From the NCBI RefSeq assembly GCF_012927085.1, contig NZ_JABBFX010000001.1, forward strand, positions 186,001 through 250,000: a DNA stretch of 64,000 nucleotides. Direction: 5' to 3'. The notes under the pieces are model-generated. The model was given only the letters and a program-made list of their open reading frames with translations. It searched no databases and was not told the origin of the DNA. Each line of letters begins with the position of its first letter. The first letter of the stretch is position 1. Shown in pieces: positions 35,570 through 46,496 of the stretch. A program made the translations under genes and the position numbers. Source of the DNA: Ramlibacter agri. Its GTDB lineage: Bacteria > Pseudomonadota > Gammaproteobacteria > Burkholderiales > Burkholderiaceae_C.

Positions 35570-35580
35570 AATGGCCGCCC

Positions 35581-36465
35581 ATGCAAGCCCTCAGCCGCCA
35601 GCAGCTGGTCATCCTCGCTTTCATCACCCTCGCCTGGGGCATCAACTGGCCCGTGATGAAGCTGGGGGTGACCGTCTACCCGCCGCTGACCTTCCGCACC
35701 CTGTCGATGTGGTTGGGGCTGCCGGTGCTGGCGCTGGGGCTGGTGCTGCTGAAGGTGCCGTTCCGGATCCCGCGCGCCAGCTGGCGCGAGCTGCTGTGGC
35801 TGAGCGCCACCAACATGTTCGTCTGGCACGTGGCCATCCTGTTCGCGGTGCGCACCTTGTCCAGCGGGCGCTCGGCCATCCTCGGCTACACCATGCCGAT
35901 CTTTTCCGCGGTGCTGGGCGCCCTGGTCTACCAGACGCCGCTGCCGCGCCGGGCCTGGGGCGGCGTGGGCGCCGCGGCGCTGGGCGTGCTGCTGCTCCTG
36001 TGGCACGAGCTGACCGGCTTCGCCGGCCGGCCCTGGGGCGTGCTGCTCGCGCTGGTGGCCGCGGCCACCTGGGCGCTGGGCACCCAGGAGCTGCGCCGCA
36101 CGCGCATCGCGCAGCCGGCGCTCACTATCGCGTTCTGGATGACGGTGCTCACCACGCTGTTGATGACGGTGCTGGCGACCGTGTTCGAGTCCTCGCAATG
36201 GCGCATGCCCGACGCCACGGCCGGCGCCGCCATCCTGTACAACGCCGTGCTGATCTTCGGCTTCGCCCAGGCGGCCTGGATCTACCTCGCGCGCAACCTG
36301 CCGCCGGTCGCCTCGACGCTCAGCGTCATGCTGATCCCGGTGCTGGGCGTCTTCAGCGGCGCCGTGTGGCTGCACGAGGCGCTGCACTGGCAGGACTGGG
36401 CCGCGGTCGGGCTGATGGTGCTGGCCATCGCAACCGTGCTCTGGCCCGGCCGGCGGCCATCCTGA
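35581..36465 (+). CDS. EamA/DMT-family transporter
   Basis: Inner-membrane drug/metabolite exporter of 294 residues with ten predicted spans and two EamA repeats. The first opens LVILAFITLAWGINWPVMKL, and the second, from about residue 150, opens PWGVLLALVAAATWALGTQE. The final block LHEALHWQDWAAVGLMVLAI is the usual end of the second repeat. Substrates of such proteins are commonly amino acids or other small metabolites; nothing here identifies one. The ATG at 35581 places span 1 directly at the N-terminus. A low-GC gene starts 11 bases upstream on the other strand. Confidence 0.9.
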   Translation: MQALSRQQLVILAFITLAWGINWPVMKLGVTVYPPLTFRTLSMWLGLPVLALGLVLLKVPFRIPRASWRELLWLSATNMFVWHVAILFAVRTLSSGRSAILGYTMPIFSAVLGALVYQTPLPRRAWGGVGAAALGVLLLLWHELTGFAGRPWGVLLALVAAATWALGTQELRRTRIAQPALTIAFWMTVLTTLLMTVLATVFESSQWRMPDATAGAAILYNAVLIFGFAQAAWIYLARNLPPVASTLSVMLIPVLGVFSGAVWLHEALHWQDWAAVGLMVLAIATVLWPGRRPS

Positions 36466-36489
36466 CTATGATGGGGTGAGCCATACCGC

Positions 36490-39678
<3,189 letters not shown>

Positions 39679-39783
39679 GCCGAACGTTCCCGCGCACCGG
39701 AGTTTCTGTAGGACACAGCCGCATTTGGGTCAGCAGGAGGTCAGCCCATCCACGGCGCTGCCCATAATGGTCGATTCCTCGCC

Positions 39784-41706
39784 ATGAACGAGCTGGACGC
39801 CCCCCACCACGAGAACACGATCGAGCAGCGCATGCAGCTGCTGATCGAGGCGGTCGTCGACTACGGCATCTTCCTGCTCGACCCGTCCGGCCACGTCGTG
39901 TCCTGGAACAGCGGCGCCGAGAAGCTGAAGGGCTACACGCGCGAGGAGATCCTCGGCAAGCACTTCTCCGTCTTCTACCCACCCGAAGCCGTGGCCACCG
40001 GCTGGCCGCAGGAGGAACTGCGCCTGGCCAAGCTGCGCGGGCGCTTCGAGGACGAAGGCTGGCGCCTGCGCAAGGACGGCACGCCCTTCTGGGCCAACGT
40101 GGTCATCACCGCGCTGTACGGGCCCGCCGGCGAACTGCAGGGCTTCGCCAAGATCACGCGCGACCTCACCGAGCGCCGCCAGCACGAAGAGGAACTGCGC
40201 GCCAGCGAGGAACGCTTCCGCCTGCTGGTGGACAGCGTGCGCGACTACGCCATCTTCATGCTGGACCCGGACGGCATCGTCCAGAGCTGGAACTCCGGCG
40301 CCGAGGCCATCCACGGCTACGTGGCGAGCGAGATCGTCGGCCGCCACTTCCGCACCTTCTACGCGCCGCAGGACGCCGCTGCGCGCATGCCGGAAATCGA
40401 GCTGAAGGACGCCCGCGCGAACGGCCGCGTGGAAAACGAAGGCTGGCGCGTGCGCAAGGACGGCGGCCTGTTCTGGGCCAACGTGGTGGTGACGGCGGTG
40501 TACGGCGCGAGCGGCAGCCTGCTCGGTTACGCCAAGGTCACGCGCGACATGAGCGAACAGCGCCGGCTGGAGGAGCTGGAGCAGTCCAGCCGCCGCATGA
40601 GCGAGTTCCTCGCCATGCTGGCCCACGAGCTGCGCAACCCGCTGGCGCCGATCCGCAACGCGGTGACCATCATGCAGCTGGAGACGCTGCACAGCCCGGT
40701 GCTGCGCAACTGCCGCGACGTGATCGACCGCCAGCTCACGCACGTGACCCGGCTGGTCGACGACCTGCTGGACGTGGGGCGCCTCACCACCGGCAAGGTC
40801 AAGCTGCGCAAGGAGCTGCTGAAGCTGGCGGACGTCATCGGCCGCAGCGTCGAGACGGCGCGGCCCTTCATCGCCGCGCGCCGCCACACGCTGGACATCC
40901 AGCAGCCGCTGGAGCCGGTTTACCTGCACGGCGACTCCACCCGCCTGGCGCAGGTGCTGCAGAACCTGCTGGTGAACGCGGCCAAGTTCACGCCGGAAGG
41001 CGGCCACATCACCCTGGGGGTGACCGTGCAGGGCGGCTTCGTCGACATCGCCGTCACCGACAACGGCCGGGGCATCGCCCACGAGAACCTGGAGAACATC
41101 TTCCAGCTGTTCATGCAGGCGGACACGGCGATGTCCTCCCCCAGCGAAAGCGGGCTGGGCATCGGGCTCACTCTGGCGCGCTCCCTCACCGCAATGCACG
41201 GCGGCACCATCGAGGCGCGCAGCCCCGGGGCGGGCGGGGGCAGCACGTTCATCGTGCGGCTGCCCATCGCGCAGGACAGGCCGGCGCCGGCTGCGGACGA
41301 CGAGCAGGGCGACGACGCCGGTGGCCTGCGCGTGCTGGTGGTGGACGACAACCGCGATTCGGCCGACAGCGCCACCGACGTGCTGCGCCTGCTGGGCAAC
41401 CGGGTGGAAACCGCCTACGAAGGCAAATCGAGCGTGGCCCTCGTGCGGCGCTTCAAGCCGCAGGTGATCCTGCTGGACCTGGCCATGCCGGGCCTGGACG
41501 GCTACGAAACGCGCAAGCTGCTGCTGAACGAGGAGTTGGCGCAGGACGCCTACTTCGTCGCCATGACCGGCTTCGGCAACGAAGACGACAAGCGCCGCAC
41601 GCGCGCGGCCGGCTTCGATGCGCACCTGACGAAGCCGGTGGAACTGGACGCGCTGATCACGCTGCTGACCGAAGCACGCGCGCGACAGGCCGGCCGGCCG
41701 GCATAA
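39784..41706 (+). CDS. Hybrid sensor histidine kinase: two PAS, HisKA, HATPase, receiver
   Basis: Soluble kinase of 640 residues. Two near-identical PAS domains (about 18-135 and 140-262) share the pattern YGIFLLDPSGHVVSWNSGAE / YAIFMLDPDGIVQSWNSGAE, typical of a recent duplication and of PAS domains that bind haem or a small ligand. HisKA has His281 in LAMLAHELRNPLAPIRNA; HATPase has NLLVNAAKFTPEGG and GLGIGLTLARSLTAMHGG; the receiver has Asp565 in VILLDLAMPGLDGY with LTKPVEL as the switch Lys region. There is no HPt and no output domain, so phosphate must pass to a separate HPt or the receiver must act by protein contact. It lies between the GAF/HPt kinase and the TonB-receptor operon. Confidence 0.92.
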   Translation: MNELDAPHHENTIEQRMQLLIEAVVDYGIFLLDPSGHVVSWNSGAEKLKGYTREEILGKHFSVFYPPEAVATGWPQEELRLAKLRGRFEDEGWRLRKDGTPFWANVVITALYGPAGELQGFAKITRDLTERRQHEEELRASEERFRLLVDSVRDYAIFMLDPDGIVQSWNSGAEAIHGYVASEIVGRHFRTFYAPQDAAARMPEIELKDARANGRVENEGWRVRKDGGLFWANVVVTAVYGASGSLLGYAKVTRDMSEQRRLEELEQSSRRMSEFLAMLAHELRNPLAPIRNAVTIMQLETLHSPVLRNCRDVIDRQLTHVTRLVDDLLDVGRLTTGKVKLRKELLKLADVIGRSVETARPFIAARRHTLDIQQPLEPVYLHGDSTRLAQVLQNLLVNAAKFTPEGGHITLGVTVQGGFVDIAVTDNGRGIAHENLENIFQLFMQADTAMSSPSESGLGIGLTLARSLTAMHGGTIEARSPGAGGGSTFIVRLPIAQDRPAPAADDEQGDDAGGLRVLVVDDNRDSADSATDVLRLLGNRVETAYEGKSSVALVRRFKPQVILLDLAMPGLDGYETRKLLLNEELAQDAYFVAMTGFGNEDDKRRTRAAGFDAHLTKPVELDALITLLTEARARQAGRPA

Positions 41707-41809: not shown

Positions 41810-43708
41810 ATGGCAACGCGTGCTCGAAAACGCTGGAAGGCCGCCGCGGGCTGGCTGGCGCTCGCGCTGCTGGCCGCAGGCGCGCACGCGCAGCAGGTGG
41901 CCGCGGCCGCCGGCCTGGCGGAACTGAGCCTGGAGCAGCTCAGCGACCTGCCCGTCACCTCCGTGACGGGCCGGCCGGAAAGCCTGCGCACCGCGCCGGC
42001 TTCGGTGTATGTGATCTCCTCCGAAGACATCCGGCGTTCGGCGGCCACCAGCCTGCCGGAGGCGCTGCGCCTCGCGCCCAACCTGCAGGTGGCACGCCTG
42101 AACGCCGGCCAGTACGCGATCAGCGCGCGCGGCTTCAACAACTCGATCGCCAACAAGCTGCTGGTGCTGGTCGACGGCCGCGTCGTCTACTCCGCCATGT
42201 TCTCCGGCGTGTTCTGGGACTTCCACGACCTGGTGCTGGAGGACATCGACCGCATCGAGGTGATCAGCGGCCCGGGCGGCACGCTGTGGGGCGCCAACGC
42301 GGTCAACGGCATCATCAACGTGATCACCAAGCCGGCCGGCGCCACGCAGGGCACGCTGGTCGACGCGACGCGCTCGGCGCATGGCGGCCAGGAAGCGGCG
42401 CGCTGGGGCGGCAAGCTCGGCGAAGCAGGCCGTGTGCGCCTCTACGCGCTGGCCATCGACCGCGACAACACCAGGCACCCGAACGGCACCGAACTGGACG
42501 ACGCGGCCACCAAGCACCAGGCCGGCTTCCGCTCGGACTTCACGCTGCCCGCGGGCGGCCTCACGGTGCAGGGCGACATCTACCGCGGCGGCGACGACCC
42601 GGCCAGCGGCGCGGCGCCCAAGCTGCACGACGCCAACCTGCTGGCCCGCTGGGAAAGCCGGCTGGACAACGGCGGCCCCTACCGCCTGCAGGCCTGGTAC
42701 GACCTGCAGGCGCGCGACGAGGTCACCAGTTTCCGCAACGAAGCGCAGGTGCTGGACCTCGAGTTCACCCACGAGCCGCTGATGGCCGCCGGCCAGCAGC
42801 TGCTGTGGGGCGCCGGCTACCGCAGCGGACGCGTGGCCAACGACCCGAGCGTGCTGGTCGCGTTCATGCCCGAGGACCGCCGGCTGGACTGGGCCAATGT
42901 GTTCGCGCAATACCAGCGGCGCTTCGACCGCTGGCAGGTGACGATGGGCGCGAAGGCCGAGCGCAACACGTATACCGGCGTGGAGTTCATGCCCAGCGTG
43001 CGCGCCGCCTACGACCATGGCGGCAAGGCGACGACGTGGGTCGCGCTGTCGCGCGCGGTGCGCGCGCCCTCGCCGATCGACCGCGATTTCCACTTCCCCG
43101 GCCAGGCGCCTTACATCATCAATGGCGGACCGGACTTCAACTCCGAGATCGCCAACGTGCTGGAGCTGGGCAACCGCGGCCAGTGGGGGCGCGACCTGTC
43201 CTGGTCCGCTACGCTGTTCCGCCAGCAATACCGGGGCCTGCGCGCCGGGACCGCCACGCTGCCGGCCCTGATCTCCAATCGCATCGACGGTTACGTCGAC
43301 GGCCTCGAAGCCTGGGGCCAATGGCAGCCCGCCGAGATCGCGCGCTTCAGCCTCGGCTACCTCGGCCAGCGCAAGAACCTGCATTTCGCCGACCTGCCCA
43401 CCGACCCCACCTCGATCCCGAACCTGGGCAACGACCCGGCCTTCCAGTGGACCGGACGCGCGCAGTTCGACCTGCCGCACCGCACCGAGCTGGACCTGAT
43501 GGCCCGGCGCGTCGGCGGCCTGCCCTCGCCTGCCGTGCCGGCCTACACCTCGATCGACCTGCGCCTGGGCTGGCAGGCCACGCCGCGCCTCGAGCTCTCG
43601 CTGCTCGCCCAGAACCTGCTGGACGAGCGGCACGTGGAGTTCAATGCCACCGCCACGGCCAGCGAGTTCGGCCGCATGGTCTTCCTGCGGGCGGTGTTGC
43701 AGCTATGA
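41810..43708 (+). CDS. TonB-dependent outer-membrane receptor
   Basis: A 632-residue outer-membrane barrel with an N-terminal signal (RKRWKAAAGWLALALLAAGA, AHAQ cleavage). The plug domain is typical: SVYVISSEDIRRSAATSLPE, ISARGFNNSIANKLLVLVDG, IEVISGPGGTLWGANAVNGI. The pre-plug segment LAELSLEQLSDLPVTSVTGR marks a receptor group that I recall near signalling genes. The barrel ends RMVFLRAVLQL, without the usual C-terminal Phe. GGGGAGAC precedes the ATG at 41810. Its stop overlaps the YfiR-type gene as ATGA, and the sensor kinase follows, so this receptor is probably sensory or feeds a ligand to the periplasmic sensor. Confidence 0.9.
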   Translation: MATRARKRWKAAAGWLALALLAAGAHAQQVAAAAGLAELSLEQLSDLPVTSVTGRPESLRTAPASVYVISSEDIRRSAATSLPEALRLAPNLQVARLNAGQYAISARGFNNSIANKLLVLVDGRVVYSAMFSGVFWDFHDLVLEDIDRIEVISGPGGTLWGANAVNGIINVITKPAGATQGTLVDATRSAHGGQEAARWGGKLGEAGRVRLYALAIDRDNTRHPNGTELDDAATKHQAGFRSDFTLPAGGLTVQGDIYRGGDDPASGAAPKLHDANLLARWESRLDNGGPYRLQAWYDLQARDEVTSFRNEAQVLDLEFTHEPLMAAGQQLLWGAGYRSGRVANDPSVLVAFMPEDRRLDWANVFAQYQRRFDRWQVTMGAKAERNTYTGVEFMPSVRAAYDHGGKATTWVALSRAVRAPSPIDRDFHFPGQAPYIINGGPDFNSEIANVLELGNRGQWGRDLSWSATLFRQQYRGLRAGTATLPALISNRIDGYVDGLEAWGQWQPAEIARFSLGYLGQRKNLHFADLPTDPTSIPNLGNDPAFQWTGRAQFDLPHRTELDLMARRVGGLPSPAVPAYTSIDLRLGWQATPRLELSLLAQNLLDERHVEFNATATASEFGRMVFLRAVLQL

Positions 43709-44265
43709 ACCGCCGGCGCGCCTGCCTGCTCCTCGTGCTGCCGCTGGGCGCCGGCACGGTGGCGGGTGAATTCGCGCCCGCGCTGGGCCAGCCGGTCGGC
43801 CTGGCGCGCGAGGCCGCCGTGAAGGCCGCCTTCCTCTACAAGTTCTGCAGCTTCGTCGAGTACCCTGCCGGCGTGTTCCGCGCACCGGCCGATCCCTTCG
43901 TGATCGCCGTGTACGGCGACGACGGCGTCGCGTCGGAGCTGGAACAGATCACGAGCGGGCGCACGATCGACGGCCACGCGATCAAGGTGCGCCGCATCTA
44001 CGACGGCGACATCCTCGGCACCGTCCACCTGCTGTATGCCGGCGGCCCGCGCCTGGGGCGCGCGCGCGAGATCGCAGCGGCTGCTCGCGGCCCGGTGCTG
44101 ACCGTCACCGACAGCCCCGCGGCCGGCAGCACCGGCCCGGTGCTGTACTTCTCGCTGGAGGATGGGCGCGTGCGCTTCGGCGCTTCGCTCACGGCCGCGG
44201 CGGCCCGCAACCTGCGACTCAGCTCCAGGCTGCTGACGGTGGCACTGCAGGTGGAGGGGCGCTGA
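43705..44265 (+). CDS. YfiR-family (DUF4154) periplasmic protein
   Basis: A 186-residue exported protein. The N-terminus (RRACLLLVLPLGAGTVAGEF) is a signal sequence. The mature part has the family start VKAAFLYKFCSFVEYPAGVF and the family end VRFGASLTAAAARNLRLSSR followed by LLTVALQVEG. In Pseudomonas, YfiR is a periplasmic repressor that binds the CHASE8 sensor of the diguanylate cyclase YfiN. Here the next gene (one-base TGATG overlap) encodes a kinase with a CHASE8-like domain and HAMP, so YfiR would control kinase rather than cyclase output; that is inference. The preceding gene, with ATGA overlap, is a TonB receptor instead of the lipoprotein YfiB. Confidence 0.85.
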   Translation: MNRRRACLLLVLPLGAGTVAGEFAPALGQPVGLAREAAVKAAFLYKFCSFVEYPAGVFRAPADPFVIAVYGDDGVASELEQITSGRTIDGHAIKVRRIYDGDILGTVHLLYAGGPRLGRAREIAAAARGPVLTVTDSPAAGSTGPVLYFSLEDGRVRFGASLTAAAARNLRLSSRLLTVALQVEGR

Positions 44266-46496
44266 TGTTCGGCCTGGCGCAAGTGCGCACCCTGCAGAAG
44301 AAGCTGGACCTGATCCTGGCCCTGACCGTGGGCCTGGCGCTGCTGCTGGCGAGCGGCGCGCTGCTGGTGGTGGAAGCCGGCAAGGAATGGCGCGGCGCCA
44401 AGGACAGCCTGGCGGCGCAGGCCGAGATCGTGGGCCTGGCCAGCGAGGCGGCGCTGGCCTTCGGCGACACCAAGGTCGGCGAGCAGAACCTGCGCGTGTT
44501 GCAGGCGCTGCCGCAGGTGACGGCGGCGGCGCTGTACGACACGCAGGGACGCCAGTTCGCGCGCTTCCTCGCACCCGGCGCCGACGCAACCTCGCTGCCG
44601 CCAAGCGCGCCGCCGGTGGGCATGCAATTCGGCCTGCAGACCGCGAGCGTGGTGCGGCCGGTGCTGTCGAACGGCGAGGCCATCGGCCGCGTGTACGTCG
44701 CCGTGCGGCACGGCGTGCTGCAGGAAGTGGCCGCCTACCTGGGCCTGCTGGTCTTCACCGTGCTGGTCAGCATGTTCGGCGCGCTGCTGCTCGCGCGCCG
44801 GCTGCAGCATTCGCTGACCGACCCGATCCGGGAGGTGAGCGGCGTGGCCCGCACCGTGCTGGAAGAAGGCCGCTTCGACGTGCGCGCGCGCAAGCGCAGC
44901 GCCGACGAGGTGGGCCAGCTGGTGGACGCCTTCAACGCCATGCTGGACGAACTGGGCCTGCGCGCCCGCGTGCTGCAGGAGACCAACGAGGCGCTGCGTT
45001 CCAGCGATGCGCGCTACCAGCTGGCGGTGCGCGGCTCCAGCGCCGGCCTGTGGGACTGGGACATCGACGGCGGGGCGATGTTCTATTCGCCACGGCTGCG
45101 CGGCACGCTCGGCTACAGCGAGGACGAGTTCCCCGACGTGCCGGGCTCGCTGGCCGAGCGCATGCATCCCGAGGACCGGCCCGAGGTGGACGCCGCGCTG
45201 CAAGTCCACCTGGACCACGACGCGCCTTTCCAGGTGCAGTGCCGGCTGCGCGACCACGCCGGCCAGTGGCGCTGGTTCATGGTGGCCGGCATGGCCGCGC
45301 GCGACGACGCCGGGCGCGCCTACCGCATGGCCGGTTCGCTGATCGACATCTCGGAACGCAAGGCCTCCGAGCTGCTGCTGCAGCAGTCCAATCGCGCCAA
45401 GGACGCCTTCCTCGCCACGCTGGCGCACGAACTGCGCAACCCGCTGGCGCCACTGCGCACCGGCCTGCAGATCCTGAAGAACCCGCGCGCTGCGCCGGCC
45501 ATGCAGCAGCGCACGCTGGGCATGATGGAGCGCCAGCTGACGCACATGGTGCGGCTGATCGATGACCTGCTGGACATCTCGCGCATCAACAGCGGCAAGA
45601 TCCGGCTGGAGCTCGCACAGGCCTCGCTGCGCGCGGCGCTGCAGACCGCGCTGGAGCTGGCGCGGCCCGCCATCGACGCCGCGAGCCATGCGCTGCAGGT
45701 GGAACTGCCCGACCCCGACATCGCGCTGCAAGGCGACGAGACGCGGCTGGCCCAGGTCTTCGGCAACCTCCTGAACAACGCGGCGCGCTACACGCCGGCC
45801 GGTGGCAGCATCCGGGTGCGGGCCTGGCGCGAAGGCGAGAAAGCCTGCGTCGAGGTCCGCGACAACGGCGTCGGCATCCCGCCGGAAATGCTGGAACGCG
45901 TGTTCTCGCTCTTCACGCAGGTGGAAGGCAACACCGGCCGCGCTGCGGCAGGCGGACTGGGCATCGGCCTTTTCCTCGTGCGCACGCTGGTGGAAATGCA
46001 TGGCGGCCACGTGACGGCAACGAGCGAAGGCAAGGGACTCGGTGCCACCTTCACGGTGCGGCTGCCCTGCCTGCCGCCGGCGGCCGCACCGGCGCCGGGC
46101 CACGACAGCGCGCCGGTGGTGCGTGCCGGCGAAGTCGCGACCCGCGTGCTGGTGGTGGACGACAACGTCGATGCCGCCGAGACATTGGCCGTGCTGCTGG
46201 AGATGCAGGGCGTGCAGGCGCGCCAGGCGCACTCCGGCCAGGCGGCGCTGGAGCGGGCGCGCGAGTTCCAGCCGGACGTCGTGCTGCTGGACATCGGCCT
46301 GCCGGACCTGGACGGCTATGACGTGGCGCGGCGCTTGCGCGCGGACACGGAGCTCGCGCCGCTCAAGCTGGTCGCCCTCACGGGCTGGGGCGGCGAGCAG
46401 GATCGCGAGCGGGCGCGCGAAGCAGGCTTCGACCATCACCTGACGAAGCCGGTGGACCCGGCGCTGCTGGAAGACCTGCTGCGGCGCCTCGCCTAG
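44265..46496 (+). CDS. Membrane hybrid histidine kinase: CHASE8-like sensor, HAMP, PAS, HisKA, HATPase, receiver
   Basis: A 743-residue inner-membrane kinase. TM1 (about 16-37, LILALTVGLALLLASGALLV) and TM2 (153-176, AAYLGLLVFTVLVSMFGALL) bound a periplasmic domain (LAAQAEIVGLASEAALAFGD, VLQALPQVTAAALYDTQGRQ) that fits CHASE8, the sensor type of YfiN. HAMP follows (DPIREVSGVARTVLEEGRFD), then PAS (about 240-370), HisKA with His388 in LATLAHELRNPLAPLRTG, HATPase (NLLNNAARYTPAGG, GLGIGLFLVRTLVEMHGG) and a receiver with Asp676 in VVLLDIGLPDLDGYD. It overlaps the YfiR-type gene by one base. The output partner is not encoded nearby. The CHASE8 assignment rests on the pattern only. Confidence 0.9.
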   Translation: MFGLAQVRTLQKKLDLILALTVGLALLLASGALLVVEAGKEWRGAKDSLAAQAEIVGLASEAALAFGDTKVGEQNLRVLQALPQVTAAALYDTQGRQFARFLAPGADATSLPPSAPPVGMQFGLQTASVVRPVLSNGEAIGRVYVAVRHGVLQEVAAYLGLLVFTVLVSMFGALLLARRLQHSLTDPIREVSGVARTVLEEGRFDVRARKRSADEVGQLVDAFNAMLDELGLRARVLQETNEALRSSDARYQLAVRGSSAGLWDWDIDGGAMFYSPRLRGTLGYSEDEFPDVPGSLAERMHPEDRPEVDAALQVHLDHDAPFQVQCRLRDHAGQWRWFMVAGMAARDDAGRAYRMAGSLIDISERKASELLLQQSNRAKDAFLATLAHELRNPLAPLRTGLQILKNPRAAPAMQQRTLGMMERQLTHMVRLIDDLLDISRINSGKIRLELAQASLRAALQTALELARPAIDAASHALQVELPDPDIALQGDETRLAQVFGNLLNNAARYTPAGGSIRVRAWREGEKACVEVRDNGVGIPPEMLERVFSLFTQVEGNTGRAAAGGLGIGLFLVRTLVEMHGGHVTATSEGKGLGATFTVRLPCLPPAAAPAPGHDSAPVVRAGEVATRVLVVDDNVDAAETLAVLLEMQGVQARQAHSGQAALERAREFQPDVVLLDIGLPDLDGYDVARRLRADTELAPLKLVALTGWGGEQDRERAREAGFDHHLTKPVDPALLEDLLRRLA

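Follow-up and report, generated by a model that had tools for sequence, protein, structure and literature searches.

A TonB-dependent receptor–YfiR–CHASE8 kinase triplet in Ramlibacter agri, a probable relative of the YfiBNR biofilm-control system

The window analysed here, a 64,000-nucleotide stretch of the Ramlibacter agri genome, contains three overlapping genes that encode a TonB-dependent receptor (TBDR), a YfiR-like periplasmic protein and a hybrid sensor kinase with a CHASE8 domain (Table 1). This triplet is a widespread relative of a system already known to control biofilms, and it probably conveys a signal from outside the cell to its interior. We assign a probability of about 0.5 to the reading that the receptor stands in the place of YfiB as the input, YfiR acts as the hub and the kinase provides the output of one envelope-spanning sensor. 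The bases of this reading are the gene order, the domains, the modelled YfiR fold, the conservation of a docking phenylalanine, the joint divergence of the components and the exclusion of YfiB-like genes.

Table 1. Positions of the triplet, its sensor elements and the upstream context genes in the window
Feature	Position	Strand	Basis
TonB-dependent receptor (TBDR), 632 aa	41810..43708	+	Pfam PF07715/PF00593, NCBIfam NF053590; TOL_0244 family
YfiR-like periplasmic protein, 186 aa	43705..44265	+	PF13689, NF053591; TOL_0243 family
Hybrid sensor kinase, 743 aa: TM-CHASE8-TM-HAMP-PAS-HisKA-HATPase-receiver	44265..46496	+	Pfam, NF053592; HK_near_YfiR_like
CHASE8 periplasmic sensor domain, kinase residues 45-145	44397..44699	+	PF17152 3.4e-16
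AALAF motif, kinase residues 62-66	44448..44462	+	Aligned to YfiN 'AAVVF' patch
Context: soluble PAS-PAS-HisKA-HATPase-receiver kinase	39784..41706	+	Pfam; 103 bp upstream of TBDR gene
Context: GAF-PAS-HisKA-HATPase-receiver-Hpt kinase	36490..39678	+	Pfam

The three overlapping genes described at 41810-46496 in the initial annotation were confirmed by their reading frames, overlaps and Pfam domains. The TBDR gene starts with the ATG at 41810, just downstream of an RBS-like gggggaga; it overlaps the YfiR gene by ATGA, and the YfiR and kinase genes overlap by TGATG. In the receptor, only Plug (2.5e-21) and the TonB barrel (3.2e-21) exceeded the Pfam cut-offs, and no STN domain was matched at E<=1. 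The YfiR protein matches DUF4154 (YfiR/HmsC, PF13689; 3.7e-29) and carries an N-terminal signal sequence recognised by inspection. The suggested CHASE8 identity of the periplasmic domain of the kinase was borne out by the profile search (59.8 bits against a cut-off of 27), and the rest of the suggested domain order also holds, with HAMP, PAS_3, HisKA, HATPase_c and Response_reg all over cut-off. The catalytic hallmarks are present (H388, the N box, the G boxes, and D676 and K728 of the receiver), and Pfam found kinase and receiver domains in place of a GGDEF domain. The locus itself lacks yfiB, the OmpA-like lipoprotein gene; the TBDR gene lies upstream, and opposite-strand FGGY kinase and SDR genes lie downstream. 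The soluble PAS-PAS kinase gene upstream, also found upstream at loci L044, L045, L046, L052, L053, L057 and L070 of the genus, is treated here as a context gene rather than as a member of the triplet.

The window triplet is not unique, and NCBIfam 20.0 already names all three families. The receptor scored 754 bits with NF053590 (TOL_0244 TBDR; cut-off 645), the YfiR protein 164.6 bits with NF053591 (TOL_0243 YfiR-like; cut-off 125) and the kinase 219.8 bits with NF053592 (YfiR-like-associated sensor kinase; cut-off 194). The model names themselves imply an association, the window genes are adjacent in the identical order, and the NCBIfam set, whose models name families only, showed no difference from the triplet in the features compared. 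Our literature search found no functional study of the TBDR-YfiR-kinase set and nothing on the receptor. A kinase output of Yfi systems is not new: divergent systems of Thauera and others likewise combine YfiR, a YfiN-type receptor and a histidine kinase, mostly without yfiB, and 'TonB' occurs zero times in the main text of that report (Malone 2012). The present survey adds the gene order, the OmpA exclusion, the F66 conservation, the joint divergence and the YfiB-linked branch.

Recurrence of the triplet across Burkholderiales had been raised as a question, and the genes proved to be conserved together far beyond that order. Of 80 receptor-anchored loci, 78 of them assessable, 66 show the TBDR-YfiR-CHASE8-kinase order; the 80 are the best of 576, lean to the TOL_0244-type subfamily and partly repeat places sampled earlier. 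These loci bear seven phylum labels, which can be wrong because many source records are metagenome bins. Because the identical gene order recurs in many genomes, the triplet is far beyond chance. A receiver lies inside the kinase or in the next ORF in 62 of the 66 loci. Across 150 genomes (taken to be G000, G008 and G060-G207), CHASE8 and YfiR were both present in 47, YfiR only in 2, CHASE8 only in 3 and neither in 98; thus, 47 of the 50 CHASE8 genomes contain YfiR. Among 77 YfiR places of the family sample, CHASE8 was located <=400 bp downstream in 63 and upstream in 9 more, with none in 5; such genome-search loci are best matches, not randomly chosen, and some loci are shared between the rank samples. 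No fused YfiR-CHASE8 frames were found among the loci up to L249.

The window triplet shares with YfiBNR of P. aeruginosa (alias AwsXRO), to which HmsCDE of Yersinia is related, the CHASE8-HAMP inner-membrane receptor with the conserved phenylalanine of the proposed YfiR site and, as modelled, the YfiR fold. The AlphaFold2 model of YfiR residues 25-186 (pLDDT 89.8) retrieved YfiR entries at all of PDB ranks 1-15 (TM 0.60-0.71), whereas the best PDB YfiR by sequence alone had an E value of 0.023. The two systems differ at both ends: the output of YfiBNR is a GGDEF diguanylate cyclase and its input is the OmpA-type lipoprotein YfiB, whereas the window locus has a kinase with a receiver and a TBDR. 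The earlier proposal of the receptor as a replacement for YfiB draws support from mutual exclusion, because an OmpA (YfiB-like) motif was detected downstream in 0 of 95 TBDR loci versus 10 of 19 loci without a TBDR (0/38 versus 9/18 among YfiR-anchored loci alone), although some YfiB-like genes may be missed because OmpA, like MCP and EAL, was detected by sequence patterns only. The structural disulfide Cys145-Cys152 of P. aeruginosa YfiR is replaced by Gly and Tyr in the window protein, which lacks both cysteine pairs; the two cysteines are kept in 15/15 and 14/15 of the OmpA-linked YfiRs versus 1/153 of the TBDR+kinase class. In the unrooted tree, moreover, the YfiB-linked YfiRs lie to the same side of a single branch.

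In the kinase, AALAF is proposed to match the AAVVF patch of YfiN, itself proposed to bind YfiR (PMC3375315, in its accessible part), which would make F66 the putative docking phenylalanine. Scored by alignment column, since the pattern AAx.F undercounts (74/153), this residue is kept in 153/153 kinase+TBDR, 25/25 other kinase, 18/18 GGDEF+TBDR, 15/15 GGDEF+OmpA and 5/5 other GGDEF sensors, and in 16 of 17 sensors with unseen output, the sole miss being a gap. Kinase residues 1-240 were modelled with a pLDDT of 92.4. The receptor, YfiR and CHASE8 diverge jointly and the kinase core apart: distances correlated between YfiR and CHASE8 (r = 0.60) and between TBDR and YfiR (0.51), whereas values with the core, where saturated distances may lower both, were 0.15 for YfiR and -0.04 for TBDR, all including shared descent. 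Mean-field coupling between YfiR and CHASE8 (233 pairs after merging of identical YfiRs, Meff 173) gave a top z of 5.3, barely above the 3.7-5.0 of five shuffles, with several pairs in TM helices, and was given no weight. The suggestion that YfiR controls the kinase is well supported at the sequence level by co-occurrence, the invariant phenylalanine and linked divergence.

In YfiBNR, YfiR represses its receptor by direct binding; in the window triplet, such binding would be a putative counterpart. In the preferred reading, YfiR would be a soluble periplasmic hub docking on CHASE8 through the F66 patch and holding the kinase in one signalling state, probably the repressed one, as in YfiBNR. 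The outer-membrane receptor would substitute for YfiB, and its ligand- or TonB-dependent state would capture or change YfiR and free the kinase, which would then phosphorylate its own receiver and, subsequently, a partner elsewhere. The GAF-PAS kinase in Table 1 is a possible candidate for the source of an Hpt domain in this relay. Inward signalling by an outer-membrane TonB receptor is the same concept as in FecA-type transducers, but these possess an N-terminal STN domain and use an anti-sigma factor, whereas the window receptor lacks STN and the triplet has a soluble YfiR instead.

It is rather unlikely, but worth considering, that the receptor imports a compound that binds YfiR in the periplasm, with loaded YfiR switching the CHASE8 kinase, so that receptor-YfiR contact would be unnecessary. 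TBDRs are importers, and LuxP switches LuxQ as a loaded binding protein. The YfiR fold also resembles that of substrate-binding proteins (5z6v and 8wgl at PDB ranks 16-17, E 2e-3; accessible part of PMC4655355), and TOL_0244, the namesake of the receptor family, is sevenfold up on n-C28 alkane versus Tween 80 in the part of PMC6304351 available. An MFS transporter adjoins 10 of the 15 Ramlibacter YfiRs of the CHASE8-less type (tblastn), but no such neighbour was found by tblastn at L188, L189 and L199, outside Ramlibacter. Moreover, we know of no YfiR ligand, and a shared partner surface accounts better for the exclusion of YfiB.

That YfiR and the kinase form an autonomous envelope sensor, with the receptor merely a co-regulated target or linked passenger, appears improbable. 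It would account for the 24 of 178 YfiR-kinase pairs without an adjoining TBDR, which are scattered over the YfiR tree (21 changes), but receptor divergence follows YfiR and CHASE8 (0.51 and 0.60) rather than the core, and YfiR adjoins the TOL_0244-type subfamily receptors in 71 of 78 assessable loci (best 80 of 576). The least probable reading is that receptor and YfiR are a pair of their own, in which YfiR might regulate or service the receptor, with the kinase as an optional extra among several: 15 of 45 YfiR places in the genus have a TBDR-YfiR pair without CHASE8 downstream, and the Ramlibacter genomes G018, G028 and G046 have such a pair with no CHASE8 match anywhere, but CHASE8 is nearby in 72 of the 77 places noted above. 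The initially proposed three-part path therefore stands as a gene set widely kept together but not as an obligatory one, given the pairs without a TBDR and those without a kinase. These pairs also count against the preferred reading, as does the absence of both cysteine pairs from the window YfiR.

Returning to the reading with the receptor as the YfiR input, one conserved three-gene set would account for a large group of sensor kinases that lack a known stimulus, and beyond the YfiB clade YfiR would gain a partner in the outer membrane. To our knowledge, inward signalling by TonB receptors has been little explored apart from the FecA type. The alkane response of TOL_0244 would offer a route to the ligand (PMC6304351, in part). 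Tentatively, YfiR signalling may take its main form, across phyla, in the TBDR-YfiR-CHASE8 unit with exchangeable output, the receptor being an energised outer-membrane sensor and YfiR the missing periplasmic signal carrier; the textbook YfiBNR system may then be an offshoot where YfiB took over from the receptor and a second disulfide arose in YfiR, a putative direction, since the tree is unrooted.

Two further candidates were considered. The idea that a second TBDR-YfiR pair feeds the single CHASE8 kinase of this genome was weakened, since all genomes in which that pair type occurs alone (3/3) have no CHASE8 match, so that such a pair can exist without this kinase. The TBDR leader motif LSLEQL..VTS was rejected as a YfiR-docking element and is a subfamily trait, because it occurs in 7/7 family receptors without an adjoining YfiR. 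The pattern matched 56 of 71 YfiR-linked receptors (loci L323 and L346 left out), and several of the 12 inspected among the 15 misses either carry the motif or represent a stretch that was cut incorrectly. In this genome, the motif is present in both family TBDRs (2/2) and in 0/9 other TBDRs.

The initial annotation had described overlapping genes for a TonB-dependent receptor (TBDR), a YfiR protein and a hybrid kinase with a CHASE8-type periplasmic domain, and this is borne out by the reading frames and by Pfam. The TBDR and YfiR frames share an ATGA overlap and the YfiR and kinase frames a TGATG overlap; the profile search matched CHASE8 at kinase residues 45-145 (3.4e-16), and the kinase hallmarks (H388, the N box and G boxes) and those of the receiver (D676 and K728) are present. 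The triplet is a genuine, well-formed and widespread signalling set, and its proteins are members of families already named in NCBIfam 20.0: the receptor matches NF053590 (TOL_0244 TBDR; 754 bits, cut-off 645), YfiR matches NF053591 (TOL_0243 YfiR-like; 164.6 bits, cut-off 125) and the kinase matches NF053592 (HK_near_YfiR_like; 219.8 bits, cut-off 194). The existence of models for all three proteins indicates that curators have already noticed the association.

The triplet and its upstream neighbours in the window
Feature	Position	Strand	Basis or remark
Open frame of 302 aa, immediately upstream of the tandem kinases	35571-36479		no match in Pfam at 1e-5 or in NCBIfam at 0.01
Tandem hybrid kinases (GAF-PAS-kinase-receiver-Hpt and PAS-PAS-kinase-receiver)	36490-41706	+	Pfam; directly upstream of the triplet
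TonB-dependent receptor	41810-43708	+	Pfam Plug and TonB barrel, over cut-off
YfiR protein	43705-44265	+	Pfam DUF4154 (YfiR/HmsC), 3.7e-29, over cut-off
Hybrid sensor kinase	44265-46496	+	Pfam CHASE8, HAMP, PAS_3, HisKA, HATPase_c and Response_reg, all over cut-off

YfiR was found in 34 of 60 genomes of the genus (CHASE8 in 30 of 59; two YfiRs and one CHASE8 in the genome under study), and in 68/200, 41/200 and 70/299 genomes of the family, order and phylum samples, which overlap. Both were sought in 150 family genomes, of which 47 carry YfiR and CHASE8, 2 YfiR only, 3 CHASE8 only (counted over cut-off) and 98 neither (Fisher 1e-32). In these genomes, CHASE8 lies ≤400 bp downstream at 63 of the 77 YfiR places, upstream at 9 and not within 4.5 kb at 5, and YfiR is absent within 4.5 kb at 8 of the 80 CHASE8 places. 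The proposed recurrence of the triplet also held in a receptor-anchored survey (query, an alignment of 12 receptors, A1; best 80 of 576 loci taken), in which 66 of the 80 loci have the order TBDR-YfiR-CHASE8 kinase and span, by record titles, Pseudomonadota, Gemmatimonadetes, Acidobacteria, Verrucomicrobia, Bacteroidota, Planctomycetota and Marinimicrobia. The other loci comprise one with TBDR-YfiR-CHASE8 and an apparent HWE/HisKA_2-type kinase by motif (L329, Caulobacter ginsengisoli), two in which the output is cut off or broken (L285 and L322), one with GGDEF, one with YfiR but no CHASE8, seven with no YfiR despite sufficient flank and two that end too early. Five Massilia/Pseudoduganella loci carry same-family receptors that YfiR does not adjoin (L293, L295, L296, L309 and L319).

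In the YfiBNR system of Pseudomonas aeruginosa, repression by YfiR is relieved by the OmpA-like lipoprotein YfiB, a place that the receptor may take in the triplet. We classified 233 unique YfiR-CHASE8 pairs (YfiR searches gave 159, CHASE8 searches 11 and the receptor search 63): 153 have a kinase with a TBDR, 24 a kinase and no TBDR on a sufficient upstream flank (one further kinase pair was not judgeable), 18 GGDEF or GGDEF-EAL with a TBDR, 15 GGDEF with an OmpA-type gene downstream, 5 some other GGDEF and 17 an unseen output. The receptor does not adjoin in 24 of the 178 YfiR-kinase pairs, which speaks against a simple three-part scheme. Where both flanks were judgeable, the OmpA motif occurred at none of 95 TBDR loci versus 10 of 19 without a TBDR (p 1.4e-9), and at YfiR-anchored loci alone at 0/38 versus 9/18 (p 6e-6). 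In an unrooted FastTree of 210 YfiRs (23 of the 233 were left out as unclassed; 80 of 207 inner branches have support under 80, and a few branches are long), the 15 OmpA-linked YfiRs form one side of a single branch (support 98); the tree requires 21 changes for the TBDR-less kinase type and 7 for the GGDEF-TBDR type. By alignment, the positions equivalent to Cys145 and Cys152 are Cys in 15/15 and 14/15 OmpA-linked YfiRs, and this pair occurs in 1/153 of the TBDR-kinase class, in which the other cysteine pair is Cys in 67/153 and 83/153. Unlike YfiBNR, the YfiR of the window has neither pair.

According to Malone 2012 (PMC3375315), yfiB is missing from most distant Yfi systems, and in these GGDEF-EAL, Hpt or sensor histidine kinases often replace GGDEF; the main text of that paper makes no mention of 'TonB'. 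No paper on the receptor-YfiR-kinase set was found in the open-licence literature, judged by titles and abstract starts, and the receptor input is the part of the triplet not found in print there. The scale of the association and the exclusivity pattern make this pathway directly testable.

The same work proposes that YfiR covers the Phe of an AAVVF patch in YfiN; the window kinase has AALAF at residues 62-66, matched to that patch. F66 and G141 are the only invariant positions in 69 diverse sensors, and the patch Phe is kept in 153/153 kinase-TBDR, 25/25 other kinase, 18/18 GGDEF-TBDR, 15/15 GGDEF-OmpA, 5/5 other GGDEF and 16/17 output-unseen sensors (the miss being a gap). The V-x-F and LL positions of YfiR are largely conserved (F 135/153; L 136/153 and 144/153). 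YfiR crystal structures fill ranks 1-15 of the structure search with the AlphaFold2 model of YfiR (pLDDT 89.8). The sensor model (pLDDT 92.4) matches WalK, itself from an integrative model, and has weak matches to periplasmic PAS-type domains such as CitA; the descriptions of the 50 matches listed name no CHASE8 domain. Pairwise divergence in the 142 of 178 kinase pairs with the core seen gave r 0.60 for YfiR-CHASE8, 0.15 for YfiR-core and 0.13 for CHASE8-core, and in the 123 with a receptor 0.51 for TBDR-YfiR, 0.60 for TBDR-CHASE8 and -0.04 for TBDR-core, with shared descent not removed and core distances possibly saturated. Within these two qualifications, the sensing side moves as a unit by these correlations and the output side is exchanged. 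Direct residue coupling between YfiR and CHASE8 gave top pairs only slightly stronger than those of shuffled controls.

Of the 66 kinase loci, 47 have a receiver inside the kinase, 26 have one in the ORF that follows (15 of them nowhere else) and 4 have neither. The next ORFs were called mechanically (59 of 60 used, L285 omitted; in two cases the preceding protein is a non-kinase or of HWE type), and 27 of the 59 match Response_reg, 6 GGDEF and 5 EAL, so that some YfiR-linked kinases probably still feed c-di-GMP. One protein, P0063, joins CHASE8-HAMP to an MCP signalling domain (PF00015), which gives the same sensor type a chemoreceptor output. The window kinase has no response regulator after it on the same strand, the first downstream genes (FGGY kinase and SDR) being on the opposite strand, and a candidate partner for it is the upstream kinase with the Hpt domain. 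The PAS-PAS kinase between them is soluble; such a kinase also lies upstream in 7 other genus loci.

A less likely reading is that TBDR and YfiR are a pair of their own to which the kinase is optional. At 15 of 45 YfiR places in the genus, TBDR-YfiR has no CHASE8 downstream, although the kinase is upstream of the receptor in L053 and divergent in L043; three genomes whose only TBDR-YfiR pair is of this type lack any CHASE8 match. Of the 15 CHASE8-less Ramlibacter YfiRs, 10 are followed by an MFS gene (no receptor was seen in one of the 10, L048). These MFS neighbours and CHASE8-free genomes favour a transport or receptor-service role for the CHASE8-less YfiRs. The same neighbours and pairs keep alive a further alternative, in which the receptor imports a compound and YfiR, once loaded with it, switches the CHASE8 kinase. 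As a functional clue, TOL_0244 of Thalassolituus, the namesake of the receptor family and not the Ramlibacter receptor itself, was sevenfold up on n-C28 versus Tween 80 and was likened by its authors to OmpS of Alcanivorax dieselolei, reported to be necessary for alkane detection (PMC6304351).

The second TBDR-YfiR pair of the R. agri genome (G000:C1:291733-295362; L004:3734-7363) has an MFS transporter gene after it and lacks a kinase, and in L188, a locus outside the genus, the gene after YfiR is FMN-reductase-like. In L045, L046 and L047, YfiR-kinase follows other hybrid kinases with no receptor between; the CHASE8 kinase of L045, whose genome is 63% complete, is broken up over several frames. 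Permuted orders, either CHASE8-GGDEF/YfiR/TBDR or CHASE8 protein/TBDR/YfiR, occur in L170, L184, L267, L175, L180 and L186.
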